Below are positions 10,744-16,543 of a stretch of DNA of 50,385 nucleotides, one piece after another. This DNA comes from Hyphomicrobiales bacterium. GTDB lineage: Bacteria; Pseudomonadota; Alphaproteobacteria; Rhizobiales; JACESI01. The stretch's first letter is position 1. The number at the start of each line of letters is the position of its first letter. The DNA is taken from assembly GCA_039973685.1 (NCBI GenBank), contig JBDWKL010000034.1, positions 1 through 50,385 of the forward strand, written 5' to 3'. Position numbers and translations under genes: made by a program. The notes under the pieces were generated by a model, which saw only the letters and a program-made list of their open reading frames with translations, had not been told where the DNA came from and did no database searches.

Positions 10744-10768
10744 GATAAATCCGCAGGCAGTGCGGATT
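10744..10768 (-). terminator. Rho-independent terminator at the end of dnaE
   Basis: An 8-bp stem AATCCGCA/TGCGGATT (10748-10768) overlaps the last two bases of the dnaE stop codon. On the minus strand it is followed by TATCGTCGTTTTTG. The U-run begins late, so efficiency is uncertain, but the position directly at the gene end supports a terminator role. Confidence 0.6.
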
Positions 10769-13700
10769 ATTGTAAGCGCGCGTCCACAATGCCAGGCATT
10801 TGTTTGATCGCTTTAGCAATTTTCGGCGTCAATACGTAGCGATTCCGCAACTTTACTTCGACCTCACGCCCACTCTTATCATCAAGGATAATCAAGCTCA
10901 CCTCACCGCCGCGTCCGCCCTGTTCCGGCGACAATTGATTGGCGATATATGCAAGTGGTTTATCGTCTCGCACGAAGATGTTGAGCGCGCCTTGGAAACC
11001 GGATGCGGCCTTATCCAATGGCTCAACACTGTTGATGCGAACATTGACACCTTCTGGTCGGTCTTCGGCTGCAACAATTATCACGACGGACGACCCCGCC
11101 TCAAGATTATCGCGGTGTCTTTCCAATGTTTCGGAAAAACAGACGGCTTCGAATTGTCCCGACGGGTCAGAAATCTGTAGAATCGCCATTTTGTTGCCGG
11201 TGCGGGTCGTGCGTTCTTGCTTGCTGATAATGGTGCCCGCAATTTTGCCGACGGGTGAGCCGCGTTTGACGTTTTCTTCAAACACATTCCATGGTTTGAC
11301 ACCGAGTTTCTGCAGAAGTTCCAAATGCTCATCAAGTGGATGGGCGCTGAGATAAAAGCCGATGGATGATTGTTCGCGTGATAGCCGCTCAGACGGTTCA
11401 AAGTCTGGCAACGGTTTCAAGCGCACAGGTTCAGGGCCGCTGACGGCGGAGAACATGTCATTTTGACCGCTCTGTTTGGCCTGATGTTCGCGGGTGGCGA
11501 GTGCGACGATTTGCTCGAGCGAATCCAATACTTGCGCACGATTATCAACCAGACAATCAAAAGCGCCTGCACATACGAGGTTTTCGAGCAATCGTTTGTT
11601 GACTGATTTCGGGTCTAATCGGTGCGCGAAATCAGCGAGGTCTTTGAAGCCCTCTTCAGGACGAACGGCAATAACGTCCGCGACCGCTTGGTGGCCAACA
11701 CCCTTCACGGCTGTAAGGGCATAATAAATGGTTTCGCCATCAACATCGAACTCTACTTGGCTCTTATTGATGTTTGGAATTTCCACATTAAAACCAAGGC
11801 GTTCGGCCTCTCTCTTAAAGTCGTTGAGTTTGTCCGTATTGCCCATATCCAAAGTCATGGTCGCGGCCAAGAATTCAACGGGATAGTTGGCTTTCAAATA
11901 CGCAGTTTGATAGGCAACCAGAGCATAGGCTGCTGCGTGTGATTTGTTGAAGCCGTAACTCGCGAATTTTGCGAGGAGATCGAAAATCTCGTTGGCTTTG
12001 GATTTAGCCAAGCCACGCTCCACAGACCGCTCCACGAATGGAATGCGCTGTTCTTCCATTACCGCTTTGATCTTCTTACCCATAGCGCGGCGCAAAACGT
12101 CTGCTTCGCCGAGGGAGTAACCAGCAAGTTCCTGCGCGATCTGCATCACTTGTTCTTGGTAGATGATGACGCCTTGGGTTTCTTTGAGGTACTTCTCGAT
12201 GCGCGGGTGGATGAAGTCAGGTTCTTCTTCGCCGTGTTTTCTGGCGTTATAAACTGGAATATTGTCCATCGGACCCGGTCGATAAAGCGCAACCAGGGCG
12301 ATGATGTCTTCAAACACATCGGGCTTCATGCCTAAAAGTGCTTTCCGCATCCCTTGGCTTTCCAACTGGAACACGCCAACGGATTCACCGCGAGAGAGCA
12401 TTTCGTAAGTTTTCGCGTCATCAAGTGGCAGAGCCGCAAGATCAATTTCGACGTTGCGCTTAGCCAGAAGATCAACGGCCTTTTGCAAAACTGTCAGCGT
12501 TTTAAGGCCCAAGAAGTCAAACTTGACGAGGCCCGCCTGCTCTACCCATTTCATATTGAATTGGGTAACGGGCATATCTGAGCGCGGATCGCGGTAAAGC
12601 GGGACCAATTCTTCAAGCGAACGATCACCAATCACGATACCCGCTGCGTGGGTGGATGCGTGACGATAAAGGCCTTCAAGCTTCAAGGATGTTGTGATCA
12701 GACGATCAACAACCTCTTCTTCTTTGCGGGCTTCTTGTAGTTTCGGCTCCCCGTCTACGGCTTCTTTAAGCGTAACAGGATTGGCTGGATTACTTGGTAC
12801 GAGCTTACAAAGGCGATCAACCTGCCCATAAGGCATTTGCAGAACCCGCCCCACATCGCGCAATACGGCGCGCGCTTGCAGCGAACCAAAGGTGATGATT
12901 TGCGCCACTTGCTCACGGCCATAACGTTCTTGGACGTATTTGATAACTTCATCACGGCGATCTTGACAAAAGTCGATATCAAAATCGGGCATTGAGATAC
13001 GTTCAGGATTGAGGAAACGTTCAAAAAGCAGCGAGAAGCGCAGCGGATCTAGATCCGTAATGGTGAGCGCCCATGCAACCACCGACCCCGCACCAGAACC
13101 ACGGCCTGGGCCGACGGGGATGTTTTTCGATTTCGCCCATTTGATGAAGTCGGCAACGATGAGGAAGTAGCCGGGGAATTTCATGTTCTCGATCACATCG
13201 AGTTCAAAATTGATCCGATCAAAATATTCTTGCTCCGTGCGATCAGGTGCAAGACCGTGAAAATCAAGCCGAGCTTTCAGACCCTCAATGGCCTGATCGC
13301 GCAAAACTTTGGCTTCTGCGGCCACAGCCTCATCACCCTCAAGACCTTCCGCTGCGAACAATGGCAAGATTGGATCACGCATGAGCGCACGCACATGGCA
13401 GCGTTGGGCAATCTCATAGGTGTTGTTGATGGCTTCTGGAAGGTCACTAAAGAGCGCGACCATTTCATCGCTCGATTTGAAATAGCACGAATTGGACAGA
13501 CGCCTGCGATCATCCATCGAGACGACTGCACCTTGCGATATGCAGATCAACGCATCGTGGGCATCATAATCATCTTGTTTTTCGAAAAATGGTTCGTTGG
13601 TGGCAACAATCGGAATGTCATGCTTATAGGCGATATCGAGCAGTTTAGGCTCCCGCTTGTCTTCACCTTCTAACGCCATACGTTGAAGTTCGATATAGAA

Positions 13701-14234
13701 ACGGTCGCCAAACAGTTCTTTCAGGCCAATCGCCTTTTGCTCGGCCACATTGGCTTTGTTGTCTAGGATTGCGAGATCGAGTGCACCATCTAGCCCGCCT
13801 GATAAACAAATCAATCCGTTACTCAATTCGCTCAACAATTCAAAACTAATATGAGCGCGTTGGTCGGAGCCCGTCTCAAGGAAACTGCGAGAAACTAGTT
13901 TGACTAAGTTTGCATAGCCATCGTCATCCATCGCTAATAAAACGATAGTGGCAAAATCATCATGCTTATTGGTGTTTAGATGGGCGTTCGGGTCTTTTGT
14001 CTCAGATTCCCATGATAGCAGGAGCTGACAACCGATGATCGGCTGAATGCCCATGCCCTTGGCTTTTTCAGAAAATTCCAAAGCCCCAAACAGATTACCA
14101 GTATCGGTCAAACCAATCGCTGGCATCTTGTTTTTCTCAACCAAGCTCAAAAGCTTTGGCAGCTTTATCGCCCCTTCAAGAAGCGAATAGGCTGAATGGC
14201 TTCTTAAATGAATAAAGTTAGAGGTATTGCTCAT
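10767..14234 (-). CDS. dnaE: DNA polymerase III alpha subunit (replicative, DnaE1 type)
   Basis: This is the catalytic subunit of the chromosomal replicase. The 1155-residue product opens with the PHP domain (FIHLRSHSAYSLLEGAIKLPKL) and carries the palm motif PDFDIDFCQDRRDEVIKYV near residue 420 with the catalytic aspartates. The GPGRGSGAGSVVAWAL block precedes it, and YQEQVMQIAQELAGYSLGEADVLRRAMGKK marks the fingers. An HhH segment (KGVGHQAVADVI, about 840) and an OB fold (VGKIAGTIISKQERTTRTG, about 1010) follow. The N terminus and length are those of DnaE1, not the SOS mutagenesis polymerase DnaE2/ImuC. Even so, two LexA-type boxes lie within 275 bases upstream, the nearer at 14344-14358. 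Confidence 0.97.
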   Translation of the reverse strand: MSNTSNFIHLRSHSAYSLLEGAIKLPKLLSLVEKNKMPAIGLTDTGNLFGALEFSEKAKGMGIQPIIGCQLLLSWESETKDPNAHLNTNKHDDFATIVLLAMDDDGYANLVKLVSRSFLETGSDQRAHISFELLSELSNGLICLSGGLDGALDLAILDNKANVAEQKAIGLKELFGDRFYIELQRMALEGEDKREPKLLDIAYKHDIPIVATNEPFFEKQDDYDAHDALICISQGAVVSMDDRRRLSNSCYFKSSDEMVALFSDLPEAINNTYEIAQRCHVRALMRDPILPLFAAEGLEGDEAVAAEAKVLRDQAIEGLKARLDFHGLAPDRTEQEYFDRINFELDVIENMKFPGYFLIVADFIKWAKSKNIPVGPGRGSGAGSVVAWALTITDLDPLRFSLLFERFLNPERISMPDFDIDFCQDRRDEVIKYVQERYGREQVAQIITFGSLQARAVLRDVGRVLQMPYGQVDRLCKLVPSNPANPVTLKEAVDGEPKLQEARKEEEVVDRLITTSLKLEGLYRHASTHAAGIVIGDRSLEELVPLYRDPRSDMPVTQFNMKWVEQAGLVKFDFLGLKTLTVLQKAVDLLAKRNVEIDLAALPLDDAKTYEMLSRGESVGVFQLESQGMRKALLGMKPDVFEDIIALVALYRPGPMDNIPVYNARKHGEEEPDFIHPRIEKYLKETQGVIIYQEQVMQIAQELAGYSLGEADVLRRAMGKKIKAVMEEQRIPFVERSVERGLAKSKANEIFDLLAKFASYGFNKSHAAAYALVAYQTAYLKANYPVEFLAATMTLDMGNTDKLNDFKREAERLGFNVEIPNINKSQVEFDVDGETIYYALTAVKGVGHQAVADVIAVRPEEGFKDLADFAHRLDPKSVNKRLLENLVCAGAFDCLVDNRAQVLDSLEQIVALATREHQAKQSGQNDMFSAVSGPEPVRLKPLPDFEPSERLSREQSSIGFYLSAHPLDEHLELLQKLGVKPWNVFEENVKRGSPVGKIAGTIISKQERTTRTGNKMAILQISDPSGQFEAVCFSETLERHRDNLEAGSSVVIIVAAEDRPEGVNVRINSVEPLDKAASGFQGALNIFVRDDKPLAYIANQLSPEQGGRGGEVSLIILDDKSGREVEVKLRNRYVLTPKIAKAIKQMPGIVDARLQ

Positions 14235-14343: not shown

Positions 14344-14358
14344 GTTCATTATTTGTTC
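14344..14358 (-). promoter_or_regulatory. LexA (SOS) box, proximal to dnaE
   Basis: The sequence reads GTTC-N7-GTTC on the plus strand (GAAC-N7-GAAC on the minus strand), an exact match to the alphaproteobacterial LexA operator. It lies 5 bases past the stop of the 31-codon ORF and 110 bases before dnaE. An AT-rich TATATT with suitable surroundings lies downstream, near 14305-14312, and could be a dnaE promoter -10. Confidence 0.65.
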
Positions 14359-14363
14359 TTAAT

Positions 14364-14459
14364 CTAAGATAGGCTAGAAACAATGTCCGCCCAATAGGTT
14401 GCGGCTAAAAAGAATGATGATAGGGAAGCTAGGGCTGCAAGGTCACGAAGTATAGGCAT
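14364..14459 (-). CDS. SOS-regulated 31-aa membrane peptide, SidA-like candidate
   Basis: A 31-codon ORF (ATG at 14459-14457, TAG at 14366-14364) encodes MPILRDLAALASLSSFFLAA followed by TYWADIVSSLS. It has one hydrophobic span (about residues 7-24) that could cross the membrane once. Translation signals are good: GGTGGAG lies 7 bases before the ATG. A TTGACT -35 (14516-14511) and AT-rich -10 candidates near 14486-14493 lie upstream, with a perfect LexA box between them. Size, single helix and SOS control match the Caulobacter cell-division inhibitor SidA (29 aa), which I recall lying next to dnaE; homology is not proven. It lies between lolD and dnaE, codirectional. No other function suggests itself. 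Confidence 0.7.
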   Translation of the reverse strand: MPILRDLAALASLSSFFLAATYWADIVSSLS

Positions 14460-14492
14460 TGGTTATCTCCACCGTTGTTATGAAGATAATAT

Positions 14493-14507
14493 GTTCTTGT
14501 TTTGTTC
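14493..14507 (-). promoter_or_regulatory. LexA (SOS) box in the promoter of the 31-aa ORF
   Basis: This is an exact GTTC-N7-GTTC direct repeat on the plus strand. It sits between a TTGACT -35 element (14516-14511) and the probable -10 (TATTAT 14491-14486, or CATATT 14493-14488), so bound LexA would block RNA polymerase. It is 34 bases upstream of the small ORF start. Confidence 0.8.
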
Positions 14508-14556
14508 TAAAGTCAATGAGTAGTAATAAGCGCTACTATTTATGCTTTATGAAATC

Positions 14557-15273
14557 TTAAAAGTCGACGATTTGGCCATCACGCAAAGTGACACGGCGAT
14601 CCATTTTGGCCGCAAGTTCCATGTTATGCGTGGCGATCAACGCCCCAAGCCCACTGCCCCGTACAAGCCCCATAAGAGCATCGAATACATGGGCGGATGT
14701 GCCTGGATCAAGATTGCCTGTTGGCTCATCAGCCAAGAGCACCCGTGGACCGTTGATGACAGCACGAGCAATCGCAACACGTTGTTGTTCACCGCCTGAT
14801 AGTTCTGCGGGTCTGTGGTCGTGGCGATGAGCAATCTTGAGATATTCCATCACTTGCATCGCGCGTTCACGAGCAGCGTCTGGTGCCATGCCGCGAATAA
14901 GTTGCGGCAATATTAGGTTCTCTGCTGCGTCAAATTCTGGAAGTAGATGGTGGAATTGATAGACGAAACCAATCTCGAGACGACGAAGCATGGTGCGATT
15001 TTCATCATTCATCGCAGCACAGGGCCGCCCATTGATGATGACCTCGCCTGAATCTGGTTGTTCTAGAAGGCCTGCAATTTGGAGCAAAGTAGATTTACCC
15101 GCGCCAGAAGGTGCGACAAGTGCGACCATTTCGCCGTCGGTGATGGTAAGGTTTGCGCCATCCAAAACGGTCAAATGCCCTTCGGTCTGCTTAAAGCGGC
15201 GTTCCACATTGATCATTGATAAGGGTGGTACAGTTTCAACAGGTGCTTCTGTAAAGAGGTCTACATTATTCAT
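14557..15273 (-). CDS. lolD: Lipoprotein-releasing system ATP-binding protein
   Basis: LolD is the ATPase that powers extraction of outer-membrane lipoproteins from the inner membrane. The protein (238 aa from the chosen start) has Walker [11 protein letters not shown]-loop [16 protein letters not shown] (the histidine-rich Q-loop typical of LolD/MacB), ABC signature [14 protein letters not shown], Walker [13 protein letters not shown], and switch ATHN. An upstream in-frame ATG at 15333 exists. I chose the ATG at 15273 because TGGAGG lies 9 bases before it and it overlaps the lolC stop by 8 bases (ATGAATAA), a translational coupling arrangement. It is followed by the SOS small ORF and dnaE. 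Confidence 0.96.
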
Positions 15274-16543
15274 AACGAAGAGCCTCCACAGGGTCGAGTT
15301 TTGCAGCGCGCCATGCAGGATAGATTGTTGCAAGGAACGACAAGAACAAAGCCATCAATATAATGGAAACGACCTCAGAAGGTTCAAGCTTCGCAGGTAA
15401 TTGCGATAGGTGATAAATATCAGTTGGGAAAATTTGAGCACCGGTCAATCGAGAGATGAATTGGCGAATATCCTCGATATTGAGCGCAAGAATGATACCA
15501 AGGATTGTCCCTGCAATGGTCCCGACTGTGCCAATTGCAGCACCCGTGATGAAGAAGATACGCATCACCGAACCACGACTTGCGCCCATTGTACGAAGGA
15601 TAGCGATGTCCCTGCCTTTATCTTTCACCAGCATCGTAAGACCGGAAATGATGTTTAAAGCAGCAACGAGGATGATCATGGTCAAGATCATGAACATGAC
15701 GTTTCGCTCCACCTCGAGGGCTGAGAAGAACGTTTTGTTTCGGGCTCGCCAATCTGTCACCAAGGCCGTTTGATCAACGGCTTCCTCAACCCTTGGTCGG
15801 AGAATATCAACAAGATCAGGATCAGTGGTTATCACCTCGATGGCGTCAACCAAATCCTCCTTGTTAAAATAGAGCTGCGCTTCCGGTAGTGGCATGATGA
15901 CCAAAGCGGCATCGTATTCCGACATACCAATTTGGAAGATCACATTAATTGGATAGGACTTGACCCGAGGCGTGACACCAAAGGCGGTGACATTTCCTTC
16001 AGGCGCAATCAATGTTAGTTTATCACCGATAGAAAGCCCAAGCTTGATCGCAAGCCCTGCCCCAACCGCGACACCGTTGCCCTTATCGAAATTCGAAAAG
16101 TCACCCAGCGTTACATTTTGCGCTAGTGCGTCCATTTTCAAGATTTCTTGCTGGCGAAGACCTCGAACCAGCGCGCCTGTTGGCGTGCGGCCTTGAGCGC
16201 CTTTCGCTAACACCTGACCTTCGATGAAAGGGATGGCTTGGACAACATTGCCAACTTTTTCAATGCGCTTTTTAATCTCGTCAAATTCTTTGAGCGCGTT
16301 GCCGTCCATCGGTTGCACGATGAGATGGCCGTTAATGCCGAGTATGCGGTCCAGCAGTTCTGTTCTGAAGCCATTCATAACCGCCATGACAACGATCAAC
16401 GTTGCAACACCCAGCAAAATGCCAAGGAATGAGAGGCTGGCAATGACTGAAATGAAGGTTTCTTTACGCCGCGCTCTTAGATAACGGCCAGCGACGAGCC
16501 ATTCAAAGCGACTAAATGCAGATGTTTTCACTGGTAGGTCCAT
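15266..16543 (-). CDS. lolC: Lipoprotein-releasing system permease (LolC/LolE family)
   Basis: This is an inner-membrane FtsX-type permease that hands mature lipoproteins to LolA. The 425-residue protein has an N-terminal membrane helix (about 25-52, after [16 protein letters not shown]), a large periplasmic domain (about 55-270), and three C-terminal helices (around 280-300, 330-350 and 385-410). It ends [18 protein letters not shown], the family's usual tail. Only one permease gene is present beside lolD, so a homodimeric LolC/E or LolF-type transporter is likely; the exact subclass cannot be set from sequence reading. It lies 36 bases after proS. Confidence 0.93.

Follow-up and report, generated by a model that had tools for sequence, protein, structure and literature searches.

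We find that the gap between lolD and dnaE in a Hyphomicrobiales contig holds a 31-aa ORF on the minus strand, MPILRDLAALASLSSFFLAATYWADIVSSLS (14364..14459), which is probably an orthologue of Caulobacter sidA, the gene of an SOS-induced division inhibitor. That the ORF is a gene and belongs to a family is well supported by comparison of its sequence across genomes, and a function is assigned to it by homology. Our confidence in the orthologue reading is lowered by the two possible starts of the C. vibrioides ORF and by the missing perfect LexA boxes in genus g310, both described below. The ORF would be a candidate SOS division inhibitor for the Hyphomicrobiales, so far unannotated and directly testable.

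In the window, by which we mean the whole stretch of 50,385 nucleotides that was analysed, the ORF has one possible start codon, and the Shine-Dalgarno sequence GGTGGAG (14467..14473, minus strand), as read from the sequence, lies 7 nt 5′ of the ATG at 14459. The original prediction of a short ORF with a good Shine-Dalgarno sequence and a single hydrophobic helix is thus borne out: the frame runs over 31 codons, and AlphaFold2, given a 28-row alignment, predicts a single helix from residue 2 to 30 with a mean pLDDT of 96.9. Downstream lies dnaE, encoding the replicative DNA polymerase III alpha subunit (10767..14234, minus strand; NCBIfam TIGR00594, 1210 bits). The upstream neighbor (14557..15333, minus strand) was named lolD by eye and has relatives in the same place by tblastn; its start codon comes from a mechanical listing, and the true start may be internal. 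Five members of the family were scanned against the domain collections, with no Pfam match at E up to 1 and no NCBIfam match above the cut-off, a single sub-threshold match being that of YmiC, which scored 12.7 bits on one member (L068) where the cut-off is 42. Between 14200 and 14620 we saw no terminator-like site.

The ORF is preceded by a sigma-70-like promoter that matches in 9 of 12 positions, with the −35 element TTGACT (14511..14516, minus strand), of which TTGAC is common in the homologues, and the −10 element CATATT (14488..14493, minus strand) after a 17-nt spacer; TATTAT at 14491-14486 is an alternative −10. As had been described, a GTTC-N7-GTTC LexA box lies between the −35 and its −10. 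This box 1, GTTCTTGTTTTGTTC when read on the plus strand (14493..14507), is a perfect match and overlaps the −10 by one base. A second perfect box, GTTCATTATTTGTTC on the plus strand (14344..14358), which the original prediction did not include, lies between the ORF and dnaE, five bases past the stop codon of the ORF. By themselves, box and promoter are near chance level. The window has 2 perfect boxes where 1.69 are expected, the region has 3 promoter-like matches against 1.1 expected, and the 3.23-Mb genome has 75 perfect boxes, which is fewer than the 221 occurrences of a reversed control pattern. The ORF, its place and its box, on the other hand, are conserved beyond chance, and it is the comparison across genomes, not the DNA motifs, that leads us to accept the ORF as a gene.

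The exact 15-base sequence of box 1 is found at three sites in the genome including this one, and a fourth site carries a one-letter variant that directly precedes an ORF resembling imuA by eye. A second polymerase match, on the same contig as the imuA-like ORF and the box variant, is taken for dnaE2. Other boxes adjoin uvrA/ssb-like and parE-like ORFs, as judged by eye in an inspection that covered a minority of the 75 boxes; genes of these kinds, like imuA and dnaE2, are typical LexA targets. The identical 15-base box is also seen near a 157-codon ORF and near a radical SAM-like ORF (by eye; L021 and L168 in genome G000). Box 2 is kept in place in two of the three other genomes of the genus, G003 (8/8 letters) and G002 (7/8), 148-149 bp from box 1, and was not found between sidA and dnaE in G001, which are separated there by other ORFs. 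From its position, box 2 may put dnaE under LexA in this genus, or may help to repress the ORF.

Absence of the ORF from close relatives, or a dN/dS near 1, had been named beforehand as findings that would speak against a gene, and neither was seen. All four genomes of the genus that were compared carry the ORF, and pooled over them the nonsynonymous differences lie well under the synonymous ones (pN 0.26, pS 0.85), as expected under purifying selection. In shifted frames of three genus genomes pS was below pN in five of six comparisons, the sixth giving 0.47 against 0.36. The corresponding ORFs of Caulobacter have a pN/pS ratio of 0.24 (ten sequences). One genome of the same genus, G001, in which the ORF was located by whole-genome search, is instructive in another way. 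Here the ORF still lies behind lolD with its own box and a TTGACA, and between it and dnaE stand two ORFs on the opposite strand, 268 and 462 codons long (L185, C6:763900-768500). Cut off in this way, the ORF evidently does not need dnaE.

A search of small ORFs upstream of dnaE across the order had been proposed, and its outcome agrees with the original prediction. Regions upstream of dnaE were obtained from 59 of 61 genomes, G009 (no DnaE match) and G035 (match at a contig end) being dropped. A first profile, built from 13 seed ORFs chosen by hydrophobicity and by eye, revealed a homologue on the plus strand in 29 of these regions at E up to 0.11 (the 13 seeds and 16 non-seeds); on the minus strand the same profile gave two matches at E up to 1, the better one at E 0.069. 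Of the 28 homologues of the order that were aligned, 27 have a perfect LexA box just 5′ of them, and 18 have TTGAC at the same distance from the box as in the window. Seven of the 30 regions without a profile match have a perfect box on that strand, and in four of these seven a diverged hydrophobic ORF could be discerned by eye. In G012, G034 and G060 a perfect LexA box precedes dnaE, and no peptide ORF was recognized there by eye.

The aligned homologues make up profile A1, which has 28 rows and was built without Caulobacterales; where several start codons were possible they were picked by eye, also for C. vibrioides and Mycoplana. G013 was left out (open frame of 204 codons). There (L066) the homologous stretch ends a longer ORF of 114 codons from its ATG, which also begins after a LexA box and is possibly an N-terminally extended form. 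In six-frame searches of whole genomes with a limit of E 0.01, A1 had matches in 131 of the order's 249 genomes, including 26 that had built the profile, and none in the other 118. For a check outside the profile we took 60 matches from 56 of the 105 remaining genomes, mostly the better-scoring ones; besides those 56, G001, G011, G013 and G217 were inspected separately. Among the 60 matches, dnaE lies downstream on the same strand in 54, a perfect LexA box within 160 nt in 42, and lolD upstream in 28. The profile finds the family by sequence, place and box. Ten of the 18 matches without a perfect box have a box of 7/8 letters within 200 nt, where shuffling gives an expectation of 1.25. In four of the ten, all from genus g310, it lies 141 bases upstream, off the usual place, and seven of the eight dnaE-side copies inspected in g310 are without a perfect box within 160 nt. 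Since the perfect boxes are missing, LexA control is doubtful in this genus.

We also used another profile, A2, on 32 genomes of the first set, which had no dnaE-adjacent match or, in two cases, no usable region, and 9 of the 32 gave a match at E up to 0.5. Three of these were inspected, of which G001 is the sole convincing one; the matches in G011 and G055 have no perfect LexA box at the locus. In Mycoplana dimorpha (Rhizobiaceae, Hyphomicrobiales) the order is lolD, box, MTEFMRDLAAFASITMFVASLSVLALGM, dnaE. A rough DnaE tree puts Mycoplana amid the genomes of the window's order, which we therefore take to be Hyphomicrobiales; the tree is poorly resolved, with the Caulobacterales not together.

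Caulobacter SidA is described, in excerpts of the source, as a 29-aa, SOS-induced inhibitor in the inner membrane that interacts with FtsW (PMC4211646), and a second source states, in an excerpt, that a lexA mutant no longer filaments once sidA is lost (PMC12700426). Among the paper titles listed for SidA relatives, none concerned bacterial SidA outside Caulobacter. Caulobacter-like genomes were chosen by CtrA, and the loci of C. vibrioides OR37 and DSM 9893 were added. Both C. vibrioides loci have a LexA-box ORF directly before dnaE, in agreement with the neighborhood of sidA and dnaE given in the original prediction. This ORF has two possible starts, the first ATG giving 40 codons and the second 29, and in some relatives of Caulobacter, for instance G402 and L155, the longest ORF is itself 29 codons. 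To judge from its length, box and place, the C. vibrioides ORF is probably the published sidA, and the homology of the window ORF to SidA depends on this. A perfect box is found just upstream of 16 of the 17 Caulobacterales ORFs checked, a set that leaves out others, among them G406, which has no perfect box there.

The comparison of the peptide with Caulobacter SidA by profile, which had been suggested as a check, gave matches in both directions, to be read with the caveat that short hydrophobic peptides are prone to resemble each other in composition. When A1 was compared with the 1347 six-frame segments of 30 regions upstream of dnaE in Caulobacterales, its first 21 matches were the expected ORFs of 21 different regions (E 2.9e-6 to 0.55, 11 of them below E 0.005), and the 22nd was a minus-strand segment. 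In genome-wide searches of the two C. vibrioides strains, A1 ranks the ORF before dnaE first in each; the E values are weak (0.035 and 0.050), and the ranking supports the view that the window ORF is a counterpart of SidA. In the reverse search with a Caulobacteraceae profile, the window ORF came third of 2562 segments (E 0.12); the first seven were all expected ORFs, and only these were clean.

In the 288 other alphaproteobacterial genomes A1 gave five matches. Four of the matches follow a perfect box, and three of these four precede a DnaE ORF, as judged by eye; the remaining match, within a frame of 469 codons, is probably due to chance. A1 was also run on eight named genomes and had a match in the expected place in three, Mycoplana and the two C. 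vibrioides. There was no match at E up to 1 in the Brevundimonas, Cypionkella psychrotolerans and Acetobacter genomes, and the matches in Dongia (best 0.175) and Cypionkella aquatica (0.664) are weak and lie inside long frames. No perfect box was found in the 700 bases before dnaE at the Dongia, Rhodospirillaceae, Cypionkella, Pseudorhodobacter and Acetobacter loci (L156, L158-L166; 321 bases of L157), nor was a homologue found before dnaE at the inspected Dongia, Rhodospirillaceae, Rhodobacterales-type and Acetobacter loci. Because boxes and matches are missing in these groups, the family is by no means universal in the class.

Five genomes of the order have two A1 matches each. In four of the five, all from g310, the second copy is away from dnaE (L257, L259, L265, L266) and has no box of at least 7 letters within 200 nt. 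Three of eight neighboring ORFs were matched by PHROGs, to a single-stranded DNA-binding protein (SSB), an Erf-like annealing protein and a RusA/clamp-like protein. Furthermore, three IMG/VR contigs (L270, L271, L272) encode close relatives; one IMG/VR contig, which at 41,685 bases is exactly as long as the G599 contig, is probably the same record. Transcriptional repressors are encoded on two of the three viral contigs and an integrase on one of these (6 of 7 scanned ORFs matched). No LexA box lies just upstream of the ORF on the viral contigs, L271 having a perfect one 649 bases before it. Annotated phages gave no match to one 27-aa query. We regard as an evenly balanced proposition the view that SidA is an old checkpoint peptide at the lolD-dnaE junction of Hyphomicrobiales, Caulobacterales and some other alphaproteobacteria, where it would run the damage arrest of rhizobia, and that temperate phages took the peptide up, freed from LexA and amid genes of DNA metabolism, to stop division of the host on their own schedule.

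We infer LexA binding, induction by damage, membrane insertion, target and division block by analogy with Caulobacter. LexA bound between the −35 and the −10 would hold the promoter off, and RecA on damaged DNA would trigger cleavage of LexA, upon which the promoter would fire. The product, a 31-residue peptide predicted to pass the inner membrane once, would associate with late membrane proteins of the divisome, namely FtsW, together with FtsI and FtsN. The FtsW/FtsI/FtsN complex would then be held inactive and septal wall synthesis kept off until the damage is repaired. That SidA and DidA hold the complex inactive in this way has been proposed for Caulobacter (PMC4211646, in excerpt).

Of the putative target, FtsW, the genome of the window (G000) has one family gene. 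G000 and five other genomes of the order have a single FtsW/RodA-type match, versus two in Caulobacter-like G382 and three in Caulobacter-like G402, so that a second SEDS protein is apparently absent from those six genomes. Suppressors of SidA described for Caulobacter FtsW in the excerpted source are A31K and F145L, with others including position 246 (PMC4211646). Assuming that the FtsW of Caulobacter G382 is numbered like that of NA1000, residue 31 is Gly in the genus and Ala in G382, and residues 145 and 246 in the genus are those of Caulobacter. In G017 residue 145 is Leu, and in G058 residue 246 is Ser. The FtsW of G017 (L190) thus has naturally the Leu145 of the Caulobacter suppressor, and the peptide is present in that genome all the same.

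These residues bear on the best surviving alternative, namely that the peptide acts on a divisome target other than FtsW, such as FtsN or FtsI, and that binding to FtsW is confined to Caulobacter. This overlaps with the orthologue reading and differs from it in the target only. Gly at position 31 and the coexistence of Leu145 with the peptide would fit such a shift, as would the C-terminal halves of the peptides, which by eye are less constant than the N-terminal R-[DE]-x-x-A-[LF], and the contact of SidA with FtsN seen in two-hybrid tests (excerpt of PMC4211646). Against it, FtsW positions 145 and 246 carry the same residues in the genus as in Caulobacter, and we consider the alternative rather unlikely. 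In either case, the divergent natural versions of the peptide could reveal which residues of SidA are important for the divisome.

TisB is an SOS-controlled short peptide with one hydrophobic helix, and a peptide of this build could instead be a toxin that depolarizes the membrane upon SOS induction. DinQ, so far as the source excerpt goes, shares the same build of SOS control, short length and one hydrophobic helix. We give little credence to a toxin of the TisB or DinQ sort, as the ORF is homologous to the Caulobacter ORF at the position of sidA, and as SidA, in the part of the source at hand, acts on FtsW, FtsI and FtsN and does not disassemble the divisome (PMC4211646).

As a further alternative, translation of the ORF could regulate dnaE, which would make it a leader ORF (uORF). 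The constancy of the downstream neighbor (dnaE in 54 of the 60 matches outside the profile) could suggest this, and in Sinorhizobium meliloti sORF25, in the 5′-UTR of dnaE1, is translated, some sORFs in 5′-UTRs being considered possible uORFs in the excerpted text (PMC10117765). In G001, however, the ORF is parted from dnaE and has kept its promoter, its box and its place behind lolD; dnaE does not adjoin the phage-type copies either, and it is the amino-acid sequence itself that is conserved, beyond mere translation. We therefore see only a very slight chance for the uORF and favor the sidA orthologue, which would offer an alternative reading of the S. meliloti ORF before dnaE1 as a separate checkpoint gene. 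That the window ORF is no gene at all and lies beside a LexA box by chance would agree with the near-chance level of the box and promoter matches, but is hardly conceivable given the constraint at codon level and the recurrence in the same place.

Several known systems resemble the one proposed here. By its description in the excerpted source, Bacillus YneA is likewise a membrane protein that is induced by SOS, inhibits division and interacts with FtsW, but in addition to its single transmembrane segment it has a LysM domain (PMC13396833). Caulobacter DidA is also a damage-induced division inhibitor with a single helix, but is described in the excerpt as a 71-aa protein that is SOS-independent and interacts with FtsN, whereas the peptide described here has 31 aa and a LexA box (PMC4211646). 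S. meliloti sORF25, compared by position alone, is similarly small, translated and placed before the replicative dnaE, although the source, as excerpted, ties it to growth and possible uORFs and not to DNA damage (PMC10117765). We suggest that sORF25 may well belong to the sidA-like family. The closest likeness is to Caulobacter SidA itself. Differences are found in the promoter region, where TTGAC at the spacing used here occurs in 0 of 17 Caulobacterales ORFs, and in the second LexA box behind the ORF; the identity to the C. vibrioides OR37 peptide is 32%, and seven Caulobacteraceae rows lie at 21-36% (computed alignment). The two nevertheless share the length class, the one helix, the LexA box, the place behind lolD and before dnaE, and the motif R-[DE]-x-x-A-[LF].
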